A stretch of DNA of 64,000 bases from Papillibacter cinnamivorans DSM 12816 (lineage in GTDB: Bacteria > Bacillota > Clostridia > Oscillospirales > Oscillospiraceae). Positions 143-47,190 of this stretch are shown here, piece by piece; position 1 is the first letter of the stretch, and each line of letters opens with the position of its first letter. The translations under genes and the position numbers were made by a program. Location: assembly GCF_900176335.1 (NCBI RefSeq), contig NZ_FWXW01000005.1, positions 124,001 through 188,000 of the forward strand, read 5' to 3'. The notes under the pieces were generated by a model that saw nothing but the letters and a program-made list of their open reading frames with translations, made no database searches and had not been told where the DNA came from.

Positions 143-1264
143 TCATTTTATGCCGTCCGGAATGCCCGGTGTCAGCGGACGGGGATGCGGAATGTTTTTT
201 ACCGCTATCACCGCCAGCTCTTTCAGGATGTCCAGCAAAACCGCTCTGGTTTCCGGGTCGATGTTTTTCACCGCCGTCAGCATCGCCGGAATGCTCTTTT
301 GCCACTCGGCTCCCAGCTCGGCAAAGGAAGACGCGTCGCCGGAGCTCAAAACCGCATACAGCGTGTCTGCAAACACTTCCCGCTGCTCGTTGGAGAGGGC
401 CGCGATCCAGTCGTTCAGCGTGCGGTTGCGGTACTGGGTGCCGACGGAAAGCTGGCGCAGGATATGAAAATCGTCTCCCGCGACGACCCAGGAAAAGGGG
501 TCGTGCTGCAGCAGCCCGAAGCTTTTGCTTTCCACCACGTAGTAATTTTCCTGGTTTTCCAGAAGCATCCCCACAAGGGAGGACTGGGGAATGGTTTTAT
601 GGATGCTGCCGCTGACGCGCCGGAACTCCTCTGTCTGGAAAACGTCGTCCCGAAACCCCGGGCCGTCGTGGGAATAGACTTTCACGATCCGGTCCTGGAC
701 GGAGCGGGAGCACTTCATAGCGGAATAAACCGCAAGATTTCCGCCCTTGGAATGTCCTCCCACGATAAGTTTCCCGGGCCGGCGGGACGCGACGGTCTCC
801 AGATACCGCACCGCGTCCTCCTGGGAAGGCACGGGGCTTAAAAAGGCCATGTTGAAGTCCTCTTTCCAGCCGGTAAAGGTGGAGTCCGTCCCGCGGAAAG
901 CGATATACACCGTCTCCCTGTCGAGATATACGCTCAGGGCGGAAAACTGTTTTTCAAGCCCGGCATCCACCGTGTCGGTGTGACAGCAGACCCGGAGGTC
1001 CCGGTACCGGGGGCTCGCGGCCATGGCGAAGAGCAGCTTTTTGCTGTTTTCGGGATCGTACAGGCCGTAAAACATGGTGTCAAACTGCTCCGCCTGGAGC
1101 AGATCCCGGATTTTCACGGGCTCCGCCCTGTCCCAGGGCCCCGGGACCATAGTCTTGAAATGCAGATAGGAAAGCTGGGACAGGATGAGGCTGTCCACGG
1201 GGTTAAACGGCTTTGCTTCCAGCCTGTTCATCTCGCTTTCCGCGTAGTCAACTATATTGCGCAT
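143..1264 (-). CDS. DUF2974 (Mbeg1-like) alpha/beta-hydrolase family protein
   Basis: A 373-aa protein with the lipase-type nucleophile elbow GHSKG (Ser about 172), preceded by an 'IAFRGTD' oxyanion-type segment (about 121-127) as in class 3 lipase-like folds. The N-terminus ('NIVDYAESE...FNPVDSLILSQLSYL') matches the family DUF2974. No signal peptide or membrane segment is seen, so a cytoplasmic location is likely. The substrate is unknown; members are annotated only as putative hydrolases. It stands alone between the ArsR-like gene and the acyl-CoA dehydrogenase operon, with no obvious operon partner. Confidence 0.8.
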   Translation of the reverse strand: MRNIVDYAESEMNRLEAKPFNPVDSLILSQLSYLHFKTMVPGPWDRAEPVKIRDLLQAEQFDTMFYGLYDPENSKKLLFAMAASPRYRDLRVCCHTDTVDAGLEKQFSALSVYLDRETVYIAFRGTDSTFTGWKEDFNMAFLSPVPSQEDAVRYLETVASRRPGKLIVGGHSKGGNLAVYSAMKCSRSVQDRIVKVYSHDGPGFRDDVFQTEEFRRVSGSIHKTIPQSSLVGMLLENQENYYVVESKSFGLLQHDPFSWVVAGDDFHILRQLSVGTQYRNRTLNDWIAALSNEQREVFADTLYAVLSSGDASSFAELGAEWQKSIPAMLTAVKNIDPETRAVLLDILKELAVIAVKNIPHPRPLTPGIPDGIK

Positions 1265-11208: not shown

Positions 11209-11503
11209 GGCGCGGAGCAAGGCCGCACTAATCGGGGAGTCAGCGGTGCCCTGTAGCCTGCAACCCGCTACAGCAGGGATGAATCCCGGCCCCCGGATCT
11301 GAGTTGTGCCGTCCGCCCCGGATAAGCGGCGATGAGAAGCCGGTCTTGCGCAACGGAATCCCGCGAACCATGTCAGGCGGGGAACCGAGCAGCATTAAGC
11401 GGATCCTTTCGTGTGCCGCGAGGGTGCCGTCTTCGAGCCGGCTGTCCGGGTAACGGGCATATTTCACGATTCAAAGGCCGGTGTGCGGCCTTGCCCCGCG
11501 CCG
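11209..11503 (+). ncRNA. ffs: Signal recognition particle RNA (4.5S/scRNA, long Firmicute type)
   Basis: RNA scaffold of the SRP that targets nascent membrane proteins with Ffh. It contains the conserved Alu-domain segment 'AGCGGTGCCCTGTAGCCTGC' (about 11253-11272), the S-domain '...CTTGCGCAACGG', 'ACCATGTCAGG' and 'AGCAGCATTAAG' (about 11345-11400). The ends pair over about 20 bp (GGCGCGG.GCAAGGCCGCAC with GTGCGGCCTTGC.CCGCGCC) and a T-run follows at 11505-11509. About 290 nt, the long form with Alu helices usual in spore-forming Firmicutes. It sits directly upstream of dnaX, the classic Firmicute order. Exact mature ends are estimates. Confidence 0.93.
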
Positions 11504-42069: not shown

Positions 42070-44955
42070 TTATTCGTCGTTTTCCTTTTTCTTTTTGAAG
42101 CCCAGGACGGCGCCGGTTCCGGTCATCATCATGCCGAGAATCGCCAGGGCTGAAGCTGTGGAAATCCCGTCGGTCTTCGGCAGAGTATCCGTATCGCCGG
42201 CGACGCCGCTTTTATCGTCCGTTGCGCCCAGGACTCCGGTGCTGGGAGACGGAGCGGGAGGCGGAGAAGAGGGCGGCGGTGTCGTAATCTCCTTCGTGTT
42301 GGTGAAGGTCACCTCTTTGTCTCCGTTCATATAGCCCGAAGCGTTCGCTCCCGCGACAGTCACGCCCGCGCTCGCCGCAATGCTGAGGGTATAATCCTTG
42401 GAATCCGTCTCCGTTGCGGAGAAGCCCGTTCCTTCCAGAATGTTCTGGAAGACCACCGCGTCGCCGCCTCTCAGCGTAAGGGAAGTCGTCCCGGAGGTCA
42501 CGGCGACCGGCGTACCCTCGTTCACGGCATAGGACACGCCGTAGTAATTGGCAAGGGTTACGCTGAAGGAGAAGGTATCCGCCGTAGAAGCACCCGTTCC
42601 TTCGATTGCCTTGGCAACCGTCAGATCATAATATCCGGGAGGAGGCGGCGGGTTCGACGTATAGGTGTTGGTAAAGGCAACCGTTTTGTCCGCCACGTAG
42701 TAGATGCCGTCGCCCTGCAGTGCCGTGAAGGTTCCGGACGTGGGATCGCCGCTGGTGGAGGTGCCGGCGGCTCCCTGAGCGTTGGTCTCCGTCACGGTAT
42801 AAGCGGTGCCGGCCTGGATATTGTAAAACTCGATCCATTCACCGTTGCTCAGGCTAAAGGTGAAGGTCACTCCCGATTCGTCCGCGTCGTCGGTATATCC
42901 GAGATTCAGGACATTGGAGTTGGATTCGTAGGAGTAGTCCGTATTCATGCCCTTATCAAAGGTCACTCTGAACACGAACGGGCTGCCGTTCCACAGGGAC
43001 GTGGTCCCCGCCACCGTCTTGCTGACGGTCAGCGTGCCGGGGGTGGGCGGGATTACCGTATAGGTATTGGTCACCACAACAACGGGGTGCTGCGTGATTG
43101 CTGTCACCGCTCCCTGATAGTTGCTGGAAAAAGCGGGTGTGCCCCACCCTGCGCCCGTCACGGATTCCGAAACCACATATGCAGTGTCCGCCGGGATATT
43201 GGAGAAGATCACGGACGCGCCGCCCGCCAGGTAGAATTCATATACGCCAGATCCCTCTGCGGTTTCGGTAAAGCTCTTGTCATTGGTAATATCCTTCAGG
43301 CCCGTTCCTGTGAAGGTCACCTTGATCAGATAGCCGCCGGCGGGAACCGTTGCCGCATTGGTGTTTACCACCTTGTTTACCGTCAATCCATAGACAGGAG
43401 GAGGCGGAACCACCGTATAGGCGTTCGTCACCGTCACCGTCGGATTCAGGTTGTCCGCCGCGATGCTTCCCGTGTGCGAAGTACTGTTGTCAATGATGCT
43501 GACCTTACTCCATCCGGTGCCCGTCACGGATTCCTCTACCGTATATGTGGTGCCCTGCGGGATGTTGGAGAAGGTCACCGACTCATCCTTCGCCAGATAA
43601 AATTCATATACGCCCGGCATGGCCACAGAATCGACGGTTTTAACGGTCAGGCCCTTATTGTTGGTGATGCCCTCCACCGTTTCGGGGAAGGTCACCGTGA
43701 TCAGATAACCGCCGGCGGGAACCGTCGTTTCGCTTGTGTTCACCGCCTTGGTCACCGTCAGCGTACCTTTGGACGGCTGCTGCGGATCGTATAAGTTGGT
43801 TATCGTCACCACCGGGTTCAGGTTCTCTGCCGTTATGCTGCCGCTGCTGTTGCTTGAAATACCCGTCATGCTCCAGCCGGCGTCTGTTACGGACTCCTCC
43901 ACTTTGTATGCGGTACCCTGCGGGATATTGGAGAAGATCACCGATGCGCCGCCCGCCAGATAGAACTCATATACGCCCGAGCCGGTGGTTGTTTCGGTAA
44001 AGCCCTTATCGTTGGTAATGCCCGTGACAGTCCCGGGGAAGGTCACCGTGATCTGATAGCCGCCGGCGGGAACCGTTGTCCCCTCGCTGGCGTTCACCGT
44101 TTTCGTCACCGTCAGCGTACCGGGGGTGGGGGGCGGAACCACCGTATAAGCGTTGGTCACCGTCACCGTCGGACTCAGGTTCAGCGCCGTGACGGTTCCC
44201 GCATTGACGGTGCTGTTGTCAGCAATGCTCACCTTGCTCCAGCCGGTGCCTGTCACCGATTCGTCCACCGTATACATGGTACCCAGCGGAATGCTGGAGA
44301 ATTTCACCGACGTGCCGCCGGCCAGGTAAAATTCATATACACCGGAGCCGGGGCTCGTTTCAGAAAAGCTTTGGTCGTTGGTAATGCCCGTGACGGTCCC
44401 GGTGAAGGTCACCGTGATCCGATAGCCGCCGGCGGGAACCGTCGTCCCCTCGCTGGCGTTCACCGTTTTGGTCACCGTCAGTGAACCTGTGGGTACCATC
44501 GGCATATACAGCCCGACATGACTCACGTCTTTACCGCCGATCGTATAGCTGCCTTTTGGAAATTCCGTCGTGGGCGTCTGGTTGATCGTCACCGTAAACT
44601 CGTACTGGGAATCGCCCGGCATATACGTTGCACCGCTGAATGAGTCCGCTCTGATAATGAATATCTCACCATCAAGATAGTTTTTAACGCTGTCGTCGGA
44701 CGCGCGGATCCTTGCTTTTATGGTTGCGTCCGAGTCCGTAATCGCGCCGGACACCCAAACGAAAGCTCTCGTCGCCTGCTTGAATAATACGATATTCGCA
44801 AATTCCAAAGAATGCGTTCCTGTTGAAGGATCGCCGACACCGGTGCCTGCGGAAGTATACGGAGCAACTACTGCGGTGGCCACCCCTCCCAGATACGCGG
44901 ACAGCATAAGTGCCGTCAGGAGCAGCGCCAGATACGATTTCAGTTTCTTTTTCAT
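42070..44955 (-). CDS. LPXTG-type wall-anchored repeat protein (DUF5979-like repeats)
   Basis: 961 aa. Signal peptide (1-36), N-terminal globular part (to about 140), then six tandem modules of about 95-110 residues. Each opens with a variant of 'LTVTKTVN', contains 'VPAGGY.ITVTF' in the first four, and ends near 'VTVTNAYTVVPPP'. The C-terminus has a sortase motif LPKTD (925-929), a hydrophobic helix and a KKKKENDE tail. It is a likely surface adhesin or stalk covalently attached to peptidoglycan. The Asp at motif position 5 departs from LPXTG, suggesting a non-housekeeping sortase, none of which is in the window. Its leader contains a c-di-GMP riboswitch. Confidence 0.92.
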   Translation of the reverse strand: MKKKLKSYLALLLTALMLSAYLGGVATAVVAPYTSAGTGVGDPSTGTHSLEFANIVLFKQATRAFVWVSGAITDSDATIKARIRASDDSVKNYLDGEIFIIRADSFSGATYMPGDSQYEFTVTINQTPTTEFPKGSYTIGGKDVSHVGLYMPMVPTGSLTVTKTVNASEGTTVPAGGYRITVTFTGTVTGITNDQSFSETSPGSGVYEFYLAGGTSVKFSSIPLGTMYTVDESVTGTGWSKVSIADNSTVNAGTVTALNLSPTVTVTNAYTVVPPPTPGTLTVTKTVNASEGTTVPAGGYQITVTFPGTVTGITNDKGFTETTTGSGVYEFYLAGGASVIFSNIPQGTAYKVEESVTDAGWSMTGISSNSSGSITAENLNPVVTITNLYDPQQPSKGTLTVTKAVNTSETTVPAGGYLITVTFPETVEGITNNKGLTVKTVDSVAMPGVYEFYLAKDESVTFSNIPQGTTYTVEESVTGTGWSKVSIIDNSTSHTGSIAADNLNPTVTVTNAYTVVPPPPVYGLTVNKVVNTNAATVPAGGYLIKVTFTGTGLKDITNDKSFTETAEGSGVYEFYLAGGASVIFSNIPADTAYVVSESVTGAGWGTPAFSSNYQGAVTAITQHPVVVVTNTYTVIPPTPGTLTVSKTVAGTTSLWNGSPFVFRVTFDKGMNTDYSYESNSNVLNLGYTDDADESGVTFTFSLSNGEWIEFYNIQAGTAYTVTETNAQGAAGTSTSGDPTSGTFTALQGDGIYYVADKTVAFTNTYTSNPPPPPGYYDLTVAKAIEGTGASTADTFSFSVTLANYYGVSYAVNEGTPVAVTSGTTSLTLRGGDAVVFQNILEGTGFSATETDSKDYTLSIAASAGVTVAGANASGYMNGDKEVTFTNTKEITTPPPSSPPPAPSPSTGVLGATDDKSGVAGDTDTLPKTDGISTASALAILGMMMTGTGAVLGFKKKKENDE

Positions 44956-45020
44956 ATGTCTCCCCTCCTAATGATAACGTCCAATGTCCTTGGTTTCCAA
45001 TTTCTTATCCTTTTTGAAAC

Positions 45021-45066
45021 AAAAAACCGCATAAAATCGTGAGAGAATGCTCACGCTTTCATGCGG
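45021..45066 (-). terminator. Riboswitch expression-platform terminator
   Basis: Minus strand CCGCAT..CGTGAG-CATTCT-CTCACG..ATGCGG followed by TTTTTTG, directly after the aptamer and about 65 nt before the surface-protein start. Its 5' arm abuts the aptamer's 3' end, so ligand binding can switch it. Confidence 0.8.
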
Positions 45067-45067
45067 C

Positions 45068-45160
45068 CGGACTGTCTTTCACCTGCGGATTGACCGCAGT
45101 ATGAATCAGACTCCTAAGCTTTGCGTCCCTGCCTTTCGGCAGGTTTGCCTATTCGTATGT
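45068..45160 (-). ncRNA. c-di-GMP-I (GEMM-I) riboswitch aptamer
   Basis: On the minus strand the core reads GGCAAACC-TGCC-GAAA-GGCA-GGGACGCAAAGC, the diagnostic GEMM-I pattern with GAAA tetraloop on P2, followed by a TAGGAGTCTGA joining segment and a second arm with stem TGCGG/CCGCA. It senses the second messenger c-di-GMP and controls the terminator at 45021. The 3' boundary is approximate because the P3 arm is less canonical. The remainder of 44956-45379 is AT-rich leader and promoter DNA. Confidence 0.85.
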
Positions 45161-45379
45161 AATCCCATTGGGTTATTTTCCCGGTTTTGTGGACAATACC
45201 AAAATTCGGCTGATTATTACATTTTCACCAATTATTTATGTATTTTGTGGATATTTTTAGATGTATTGTACAATTATAATATCATACATCCCGAATCCTG
45301 TCTACTCTCTTCTTTAATTTTCCCTGAAATAGCAAGGCGTCCGGTCCCTGAAGGAGCCGGACACCTCTGCTTATTCTGT

Positions 45380-46504
45380 TTATTCCACCGGAGAGGATAC
45401 GCAGGCGGGGTACTGCTCCCTGTCCCACTTGTAGCTGTTTTCCATCTCATCGTCGGACCGCATCAGGAACCATTCGCTCCCCTGCAGGTCCCCCATGGCT
45501 GTGTCCACATGATAATACCGCCCGTCCAGCTCCACGATGTTCCAGAAGTGCTCTGCTCCCTTGACCGTCCCCTGCACCACCTGACAATCGATCCCCGCGG
45601 CGGAGCACAAAAGCCGGAAAGCCAGGGCATAACCCTCGGAAAGGGCCTTCCCCTCCACCAGTGCGCCGTAAGCGTTATAGGCGTTGTTCTTGACGAAACC
45701 GGGCTGGGCGGAAGCCTTTTCCGTCCCGGTATCGTATTCCGTCGCGGCAATCAGGATGTCATAGAGGTCGCCGACCTTCTTCTCATCCGTCATGGGGGAA
45801 AGCCGCGATACCATTTCCCAGGCCTCCGCCGCTGTCTGTTCCTTCATCTTTTCCAGCACGTCCGCATCCAGGGGATAGGTCAGCCGGATCTCCACCACCC
45901 GCTGGGTTCCGCTGTCGGGATACAGACTCACGGTGACTTCCGGCATGCCGAAGGCCGCCTGGGGGGAATCGTAATACGCGCTTTTCACCAGGGCCTGAAT
46001 GTAAGACTCGTCCTCGGTAAAATAGGTAATGCGCAGGGCCAGCTCAGGGCCGAATTTAAGAAGGACAGTCTGGATCTCCTCCCGGATGGCGCTGCTGCCC
46101 GTGGCATTCTTTACCGCGCGGATCTGCTGGGCGTCCCGCCGGTAGCTGATTTTCACGGAGACCTCGTAATAGGACATGATCCGGTCATACTCGCTGGTCA
46201 TATAATCCACGGCATAGGCCCCCAGGGGATCGTCCCGGGTGACCTCCAGGCAGGCGGCCGCAACATCCGCGTCCACATCCCCCTGGTAGTCGTACAGCCG
46301 GATCTTCCCCTCTTCGGAGGCCTCCGAAACCAGATATAATATGGCGTTGACCAGCTCCTGATAATTGCCGGCCCGGAGAACGGAGGACTCCTCCACATAC
46401 TGCTCGGCATGAGGCTCCACGGACAAGGTGTTCCGGTCCAGCAGCGAGCATCCGGAAAGGGGAACGGCAAGGAGCAAAACCAGGCAAAAGACCCGCTTTT
46501 TCAC
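45380..46504 (-). CDS. Transglutaminase-like lipoprotein with Ser at the usual Cys position
   Basis: 374 aa from GTG 46504 (AAGGGGGAAACAG upstream). Lipobox 'PLSGC' (Cys19). The C-terminal transglutaminase-core fold is clear: 'KALSEGYALAFRLLCSAAGI', 'EHFWNIVELDGRYYHVD'. His319 and Asp334 of the triad are present, but the position normally held by Cys (usually GxCxGYA) is Ser289 (codon 45640-45638, TCC). The protein may thus be a binding or scaffold protein, or a Ser-nucleophile hydrolase. The N-terminal 200 residues are unassigned. Extracellular, membrane-tethered. Confidence 0.82.
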   Translation of the reverse strand: MKKRVFCLVLLLAVPLSGCSLLDRNTLSVEPHAEQYVEESSVLRAGNYQELVNAILYLVSEASEEGKIRLYDYQGDVDADVAAACLEVTRDDPLGAYAVDYMTSEYDRIMSYYEVSVKISYRRDAQQIRAVKNATGSSAIREEIQTVLLKFGPELALRITYFTEDESYIQALVKSAYYDSPQAAFGMPEVTVSLYPDSGTQRVVEIRLTYPLDADVLEKMKEQTAAEAWEMVSRLSPMTDEKKVGDLYDILIAATEYDTGTEKASAQPGFVKNNAYNAYGALVEGKALSEGYALAFRLLCSAAGIDCQVVQGTVKGAEHFWNIVELDGRYYHVDTAMGDLQGSEWFLMRSDDEMENSYKWDREQYPACVSSPVE

Positions 46505-46593
46505 CTGTTTCCCCCTTTCCCGCGGAAAGCGCCCGCCCTCCGCGCCGTTTCGTATGTACCTTATTTTTGGAAAACTGTGAGTCCCTTTCGGAA

Positions 46594-47190
46594 TCAGAAG
46601 CCCAGGTTTTCCCGGATAAGCACGACCTCCATAAGCTGGGTTTTGCTCATCCTCTTCCATAAAACCGACATCCCGTTGCAGATCCTGCCGGAGCTCTGGC
46701 AGTCGTAGCATTTGTCTGCCTTGACGGTGCAGGGCGTTCCCGTATTCAGCCGCCGGGCGTTGAGAGGAGCGGCAACGTTTTTTGCCCGCCAGACGGCGCT
46801 GTCGTAATCCGGGGTGATCTTATTCATCCCCACGATGAAGAAAATCCGCTTATGTCCATAGAGCATGGAGGCAATCCGGTTGCCCGCCCCGTCGATGTTC
46901 ACGATCTCCCCGGTCTCGGCTATGGCGTTGGCCGAGGTGAGAAAGACCTCCGAAACCTGCGCCTCGGGAGGAACTGCAAAATTGGGCTGTTTCCAGTGCC
47001 AATACACCTTGTTGTGGGTCACCAGCCTGTCGTAAAGGCCCATGTCCCGGATGGTGACGGAGCCGCCGATGCCCACGTCGGTCCCGTCTATGGCCTTGTC
47101 CAGATAATCCATAGCCTCCGCCGCACTGCTGAATTCCCGATAGGAGAATCCGTTTTTCGTCAGGTTCTTCTGTAATTTTTCCAGATCCAT
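46594..47190 (-). CDS. LUD-domain (LutC/YkgG-like) protein
   Basis: 198 aa. 'VGIGGSVTIRDMGLYDRL', 'VFLTSANAIAETGEIVNIDGAGNR' and 'IFFIVGMNKIT' are hallmarks of the LUD (DUF162) family related to lactate-utilisation LutB/LutC. A C-terminal 'CYDCQSSGRIC' could ligate metal. Standalone versions like this are common in Clostridia, with unknown role. The start follows CTGGAAAAA-type sequence. It lies 89 bp upstream of the lipoprotein gene on the same strand. Confidence 0.85.
   Translation of the reverse strand: MDLEKLQKNLTKNGFSYREFSSAAEAMDYLDKAIDGTDVGIGGSVTIRDMGLYDRLVTHNKVYWHWKQPNFAVPPEAQVSEVFLTSANAIAETGEIVNIDGAGNRIASMLYGHKRIFFIVGMNKITPDYDSAVWRAKNVAAPLNARRLNTGTPCTVKADKCYDCQSSGRICNGMSVLWKRMSKTQLMEVVLIRENLGF

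Follow-up and report, generated by a model that had tools for sequence, protein, structure and literature searches.

The 64,000-nucleotide stretch of Papillibacter cinnamivorans DSM 12816 analyzed here (hereafter, the window) carries a gene for a sortase-type surface protein preceded by a structured leader. Does this leader contain an RNA sensor of c-di-GMP, and would the ligand raise or lower production of the protein encoded behind it? A preliminary description of the locus had answered the first part with a c-di-GMP-I riboswitch controlling a giant, LPKTD-anchored repeat protein, and had proposed that an ON or OFF switch could be distinguished by folding.

The aptamer, its ligand and the surface protein gene

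On the minus strand, the core GGCAAACC..GAAA..GGGACGCAAAGC is located at positions 45159-45059, where a covariance-model search with RF01051 (c-di-GMP-I, or GEMM-I) covered the full model (positions 1-87 of 87) at 55.0 bits, against a gathering threshold of 35 (E 5.2e-8). The family-model search that had been named as a check thus bears out the aptamer. RF01051 is the best match within its clan, in which one other match scored lower; in this clan comparison RF03167 (c-di-GMP-I-GGC) was not better. The RF01051 alignment retains the GAAA loop, the GC/GC pairs, the first G of GGCAAACC and the C at model position 83, the last two of which we take to be ligand-contact positions. The C aligned to position 83, C45063 on the minus strand, is presumably the ligand-pairing base called “C92” in Vc2 numbering. 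The window aptamer is more than a chance match because two similar copies precede another LPXTG gene; score, anatomy and these two paralogous copies together uphold the proposal of a c-di-GMP-I riboswitch leading a sortase-type repeat protein.

The gene behind the aptamer encodes the LPXTG-type surface protein P0001 (961 aa; positions 44955-42070, minus strand), in which Pfam recognizes six DUF7601 stretches, a DUF5979 domain and a Gram-positive anchor. Its start resembles a signal peptide by eye, and its tail consists of the cell-wall sorting motif LPKTDG (42183-42166, minus strand), a hydrophobic stretch and KKKKENDE. The predicted LPXTD-type anchor is supported by sequence and profiles alike, with 21.6 to 28.3 bits for TIGR01167 (cut-off 15.9) and 20.5 for PF00746 (cut-off 20), and P0001 would be attached to the wall and may act in adhesion; the D at the fifth position of LPKTD may make for poorer anchoring. 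Evidence for CnaB-type repeats, which MSCRAMM-like adhesins carry beneath an adhesive head, comes from the six DUF7601 stretches and from one PDB match, that of the last repeat (residues 773-893) to the C-terminal domain of pilus ancillary protein 1 (PDB 2xi9/4bug, E 2.4e-4). The adjective “giant” does not suit a protein of 961 aa and would better fit an LPQTG paralog of 2230 aa that is encoded at another locus of the genome. The description of P0001 as a different protein family holds in part only, since its apparent plan of signal peptide, presumed head, CnaB-like stalk and LPXTG anchor is the one given for Cap/CbpA in the consulted part of PMC7423583. A pattern scan of genome contigs found no relatives of P0001, and matches occur in 3 of 40 genomes, its own included, those in the other two being weak and incomplete (2.1e-8 and 8.7e-5).

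The riboswitch has a transglutaminase-core gene immediately upstream of it (45380-46711, minus strand; Pfam). Enrichment in Bacillota has been described for tandem c-di-GMP-I aptamers that precede transglutaminase-like genes (PMC12452182, in part); unlike in that arrangement, the transglutaminase gene lies here upstream and not downstream. The window also holds a large bacterial SRP RNA (11223-11488, plus strand, 206 bits) with a tRNA nearby (11038-10966, minus strand).

GEMM-I aptamers do not all share one ligand: excerpts of PMC8835794 report that 12 of 17 such riboswitches of Geobacter sulfurreducens bind cGAMP. Three of the nine copies in the host genome have an A for the first G of GGCAAACC, so that recognition of another cyclic dinucleotide, such as 3′,3′-cGAMP, had to be weighed. 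This first G is presumably the ligand-selectivity position; cGAMP-sensing (GEMM-Ib) systems are marked by an A in its place and by a Hypr GGDEF protein in the genome. The window copy has G at this position. All nine GGDEF domains of the genome keep the D of c-di-GMP synthases in the GxxxGD motif (eight as GHxxGD, one as GFENGD), at what we take to be the Hypr position, and the Ser of Hypr enzymes occurs in none of the nine. The cGAMP reading of the window copy was rejected on these two grounds, and a ligand other than c-di-GMP is given only a very slim chance.

A terminator that shares the 3′ strand of the aptamer

Upstream of the aptamer, at a distance of 117 nt, lies a candidate sigma-70-like promoter (TAGACA-17-TATTAT with TG; 45304-45276, minus strand), which was called by consensus only (10 of 12 matches) in a region, 44900-45500, where promoter-like sites number 5 on both strands against 0.7 expected from shuffles. 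Downstream of the aptamer, the ribosome binding site AGGAGGGG (44969-44962, minus strand) stands 6 nt ahead of the ATG at 44955. Between aptamer and ribosome binding site stands an intrinsic terminator (45068-45025, minus strand), the expression platform within this 5′ leader, with a hairpin of 12 + 6 pairs (stem 45068-45050 / 45043-45025) and a U-tract of 6 T (45026-45021). The segment 45070-45017 folds at −24.6 kcal/mol (z −6.0), a stability equalled by none of 200 shuffles. The terminator postulated after the aptamer is thus present, but the earlier statement that the aptamer's 3′ side merely abuts the terminator arm falls short: the aptamer's own 3′ strand is the 5′ arm. In the pair list, this arm (45068-45050) begins inside the aptamer, overlaps its 3′ strand and includes C45063, which pairs with G45030 in the terminator.

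Folding gives a polarity, as had been anticipated. The minimum free energy of the window leader is −60.5 kcal/mol with the terminator, vs. −45.4 kcal/mol when the aptamer piece and the rest are folded apart. The same comparison yields −64.2 vs. −47.3 and −64.0 vs. −51.2 kcal/mol for the two leaders at C12_123541 and C12_123734, and smaller gaps (1.5, 9.0, 0.1, and 3.9 kcal/mol) for four copies with detached terminators. Since the terminator is built in part from the aptamer's 3′ strand, it and the bound aptamer are mutually exclusive, and an ON switch is therefore predicted. The opposite possibility, that c-di-GMP, once bound, promotes formation of the terminator and so represses the surface protein, draws on the class I switches of C. 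difficile, which mostly turn genes off (PMC6200980, in part), and on family genomes, where terminators are detached in 48 of the 99 surveyed copies listed, overlapping in 9 and absent from 42 under the stricter of our home-made rules. In the window, however, aptamer and terminator share a strand and cannot form together; an OFF reading of this copy was rejected on that account and is considered quite unlikely. We hold it very probable, from this structural model, that the window element is a transcriptional c-di-GMP ON switch for an LPXTG-type surface protein.

In the proposed mechanism, RNA polymerase would transcribe the aptamer before the terminator. An aptamer bound to c-di-GMP would retain its 3′ strand (..GGCCGCAUGA), in which the ligand-pairing C lies, leaving the downstream half of the terminator without a partner and allowing read-through into the gene; without ligand, the strand would enter the 12 + 6 bp hairpin, which with its six U would stop transcription ahead of the gene. 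The product would be a signal-peptide-bearing, CnaB-like repeat protein attached to the wall by the one sortase detected. All three copies that precede LPXTG genes have a poor outer helix, P1 (−3.3 kcal/mol in the window, −3.2 and −6.3 in the others), and folding found no convincing P1 in any of these ON-type copies. How strongly the bound aptamer grips its own 3′ strand is therefore uncertain, and with a P1 of −3.3 kcal/mol the block of the terminator would depend on the core and the ligand.

The arrangement is that of pilM, a GEMM-I ON switch whose terminator sequesters the ligand-pairing C75, whereas Cd1 is an OFF switch (PMC9262584, in part); C45063 is taken as the ligand-pairing base by analogy with this C75. 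Unlike pilM, which senses cGAMP in Geobacter metallireducens, the window copy has a G at the selectivity position and its genome has no Hypr-type GGDEF.

Riboswitch copies and putative sortase substrates in the host genome

The host assembly (99% complete, 20 contigs) contains nine c-di-GMP-I copies by RF01051, with scores from the 55 of the window copy, the lowest, to 88.1, and no class II c-di-GMP riboswitch over the cut-off. Convincing LPXTG anchors number two by TIGR01167, a count of profile-detected proteins that unusual anchors could escape: P0001 (28.3 bits) and the 2230-aa protein (31.7 bits), whose domains are VWA, DUF7601 and DUF11. A third match (15.7 bits; 16.6 with neighbours, just above the cut-off) covers profile positions 13-32 only and does not take in the motif. 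Upstream of each LPXTG gene, the terminator overlaps the conserved C of the aptamer, with a single aptamer for P0001 and a tandem pair for the 2230-aa protein. The members of the pair are 89% identical to each other over 65 nt and 83% over 54 nt, and the mean column identity of the three aligned copies is 83%. Since this module stands before both detected LPXTG genes, c-di-GMP would switch on both detected sortase substrates.

This joint conservation of aptamer and terminator in three copies before two LPXTG genes also bears on whether the window aptamer is decaying or non-responsive, its leader now serving mainly as a constitutive attenuator. Its weak P1 and its score, the lowest of the nine, would fit such a loss, as would the degraded look of a copy at C10:411965 (L013:7966-8048, minus strand), which has a substitution at the conserved 3′ C (GTTGTATTT); that copy precedes an ORF, SLH-like by eye, with a stop after 46 codons, and switch and gene are possibly decaying together. 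Against decay in the window, the core, the GAAA loop and the terminator are conserved across the three copies and the score is well over the threshold, which leaves this alternative highly improbable and a working ON switch the preferred reading.

One sortase gene (PF04203) was detected. It scores 103 bits for class E and 90 for class C, both below the curated 160, and its relative in one Oscillospiraceae MAG (38% identity) has no Rfam match nearby. The gene is situated between the cluster of the 2230-aa LPQTG protein and tandem aptamers that precede a CAP-domain gene. The idea that the sortase gene is itself under riboswitch control was rejected, as its leader has no c-di-GMP-I aptamer at the gathering threshold. 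The tandem aptamers before the CAP-domain (YkwD-like) gene (L010:2363-2607, plus strand) have A in the first and G in the second at the selectivity position, and CAP-like genes also stand behind aptamers in relatives (L083 by Pfam; L084, L089, L111, L129, and L136 by eye). A further canonical c-di-GMP-I copy with a terminator (C12:125475, or L010:976-1061, minus strand) is an orphan switch: the 1.6 kb up to the next aptamer contain no convincing coding sequence, and this stretch includes degenerate direct repeats of 44-68 bp.

Two other copies precede flgC- and fliF-type genes (Pfam), the first sitting between flgB and flgC. Their terminators are detached from the aptamer, as in OFF switches, and they are tentatively read as probable OFF switches for flagellar genes. 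A test of antiterminator pairing placed only 6 of 47 detached-terminator cases above 95% of shuffles; at C9_58394 the chosen antiterminator hairpin came out at 0.865, and another hairpin at this locus contains the sequence GGTAAC, which is complementary to GTTGCC of the aptamer.

Family genomes and known systems

The survey of the family comprised 250 genomes, at least 71 of which have a c-di-GMP-I match; the 80 regions fetched are the best-scoring part of a longer match list, so that weaker copies are missing. In these best 80 regions (one place being fetched twice), cmscan recognized the 99 distinct copies, with RF01051 the top model for 86 and RF03167 for 13, and terminators and LPXTG signals were called by home-made rules. 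The 93 family entries among the listed matches divide into 25 LPXTG, 6 open-ended, 7 without a gene and 55 other, the last with 36 detached, 8 overlapping, 1 mixed and 10 no terminators. By our reading of the regions, the 25 aptamer-gene pairs ending in an LPXTG-type signal represent 24 genes in 14 genomes, the L127 gene being counted for two aptamers. Examples of adhesin-like products are those of L160, with nine Cna_B stretches and a SpaA domain, and L133, with a thioester domain. None of the 25 has a terminator by the stricter rule; a looser first rule flags five (L140, L134, L133:6001, L133:11904, and L155), which were set aside for a poor U-tract or a hairpin spanning the aptamer. The start codon follows 29-50 nt past the aptamer in 24 pairs; for the outer L127 aptamer, the start as called overlaps with the second aptamer. 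Among relatives, overlapping terminators are strongest in L115, L149, and L130, where they precede non-LPXTG genes; the one in L115 (aptamer at 151-237, plus strand) is of the ON type and stands before a gene with a VTC domain, presumably of the polyphosphate polymerase type. In L087, L108, and L122, c-di-GMP-I aptamers precede short ORFs of the transposase helix-turn-helix type (HTH_Tnp_1).

Thirty-two leaders with no terminator and a long ORF nearby, 24 of them from the LPXTG list, were analyzed uncorrected for kinship. In these, the strand past the conserved C can pair either with the 5′ flank, forming P1, or with the Shine-Dalgarno (SD) region. Pairing within a leader was stronger than between leaders both for P1 (−6.62 vs. 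−5.53; 3 of 2000 shuffles as low) and for the SD hairpin (−6.49 vs. −4.99; 0 of 2000), and the control pairing of 5′ flank with SD region gave no signal in the same leaders (1891 of 2000 shuffles). Of the 32 leaders, only 1 (P1) and 6 (SD) paired best with their own partner, because many of them share a motif. For the structure alignment, 30 leaders were retained, leaving out L100 as not LPXTG-like and L116 as truncated on its 5′ side; in the MAFFT alignment the 5′ flank is out of register. Over these 30, 71.5% of cells in the SD helix are paired, whereas slid registers give 44-54% (1 of 500 shuffles is as high); covariation is 0.271, against at most 0.145 in slid registers (3 of 500). Pairs changed on both sides show no excess (473 of 500 shuffles as high), nor do further pair types (226 of 500), and a slide of +2 gives more both-side cell changes than the helix in register (24 vs. 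21). P1 and the SD helix overlap by at least 3 nt in 28 of 32 leaders, a count that is no evidence since exchanged partners come close (mean 24.9; 16 of 200 reach 28), and some of the longest pairing runs in this overlap analysis are not the SD helix. The pairing test is supportive, not conclusive, and a translational ON platform in the family genomes is suggested by the modelled helices.

Taken jointly, these observations lead to a reading to which we assign even chances: class I aptamers alone would let c-di-GMP gate the sortase-anchored surface, through transcriptional ON switches in the host genome (both LPXTG genes, one sortase) and through translational ON switches in other family genomes, where one strand would choose between P1 and an SD-masking hairpin, with the flagellar genes of the host turned OFF via detached terminators.

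The kind of switch is already known. According to the accessible portions of PMC4933901 and PMC7423583, Bc2 before cap in B. thuringiensis is a class I ON switch for an LPXTG collagen adhesin, and Bc2-cap/cbpA of Bacillus thuringiensis and B. cereus shares with the present element the class I aptamer and the terminator-based ON mode, acting by a terminator and anti-terminator; the LPXTG protein encoded behind Bc2 has a head on Cna_B-type stalk repeats, a plan that P0001 seems to share. Unlike Bc2-cap, the present module belongs to another lineage and another protein and stands, single or in tandem, before both detected LPXTG genes. Bc2-cap is a closer precedent (PMC4933901) than the C. difficile adhesins invoked in the preliminary description: in the part of PMC6200980 consulted, the sortase substrates CD2831 and CD3246 lie behind class II ON switches. 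As in that C. difficile regulon, flagellar genes stand behind class I copies and c-di-GMP would raise sortase-dependent surface proteins; unlike C. difficile, which uses class II for its ON genes, the host genome lacks any class II copy above the cut-off, and one class would therefore serve both polarities. Vc1-gbpA of Vibrio cholerae is likewise a class I element raising a colonisation factor; unlike Vc1, for which the available text of PMC4744006 describes no apparent terminator or anti-SD, the window element has a terminator and the family genomes a candidate SD-masking hairpin. A search of mainly open literature found no published title that deals with LPXTG proteins and c-di-GMP riboswitches in this group. 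The apparently complete regulon of the host genome and the candidate translational platform in its relatives seem to be new.

It thus appears that this bacterium would use a c-di-GMP RNA sensor to turn on a wall-anchored, adhesin-like surface protein. The family genomes offer a candidate for how class I ON switches could act at the level of translation; for Vc1, the available part of PMC4744006 reports the mechanism as unclear. The host genome offers a testable case of one riboswitch class with opposite polarities in one cell, anchored proteins ON and flagella probably OFF, in contrast to C. difficile, which splits the polarities between two riboswitch classes (PMC6200980, in part). The locus suggests that wall-anchored, adhesin-like proteins may be wired directly to c-di-GMP in a little-studied bacterial group.
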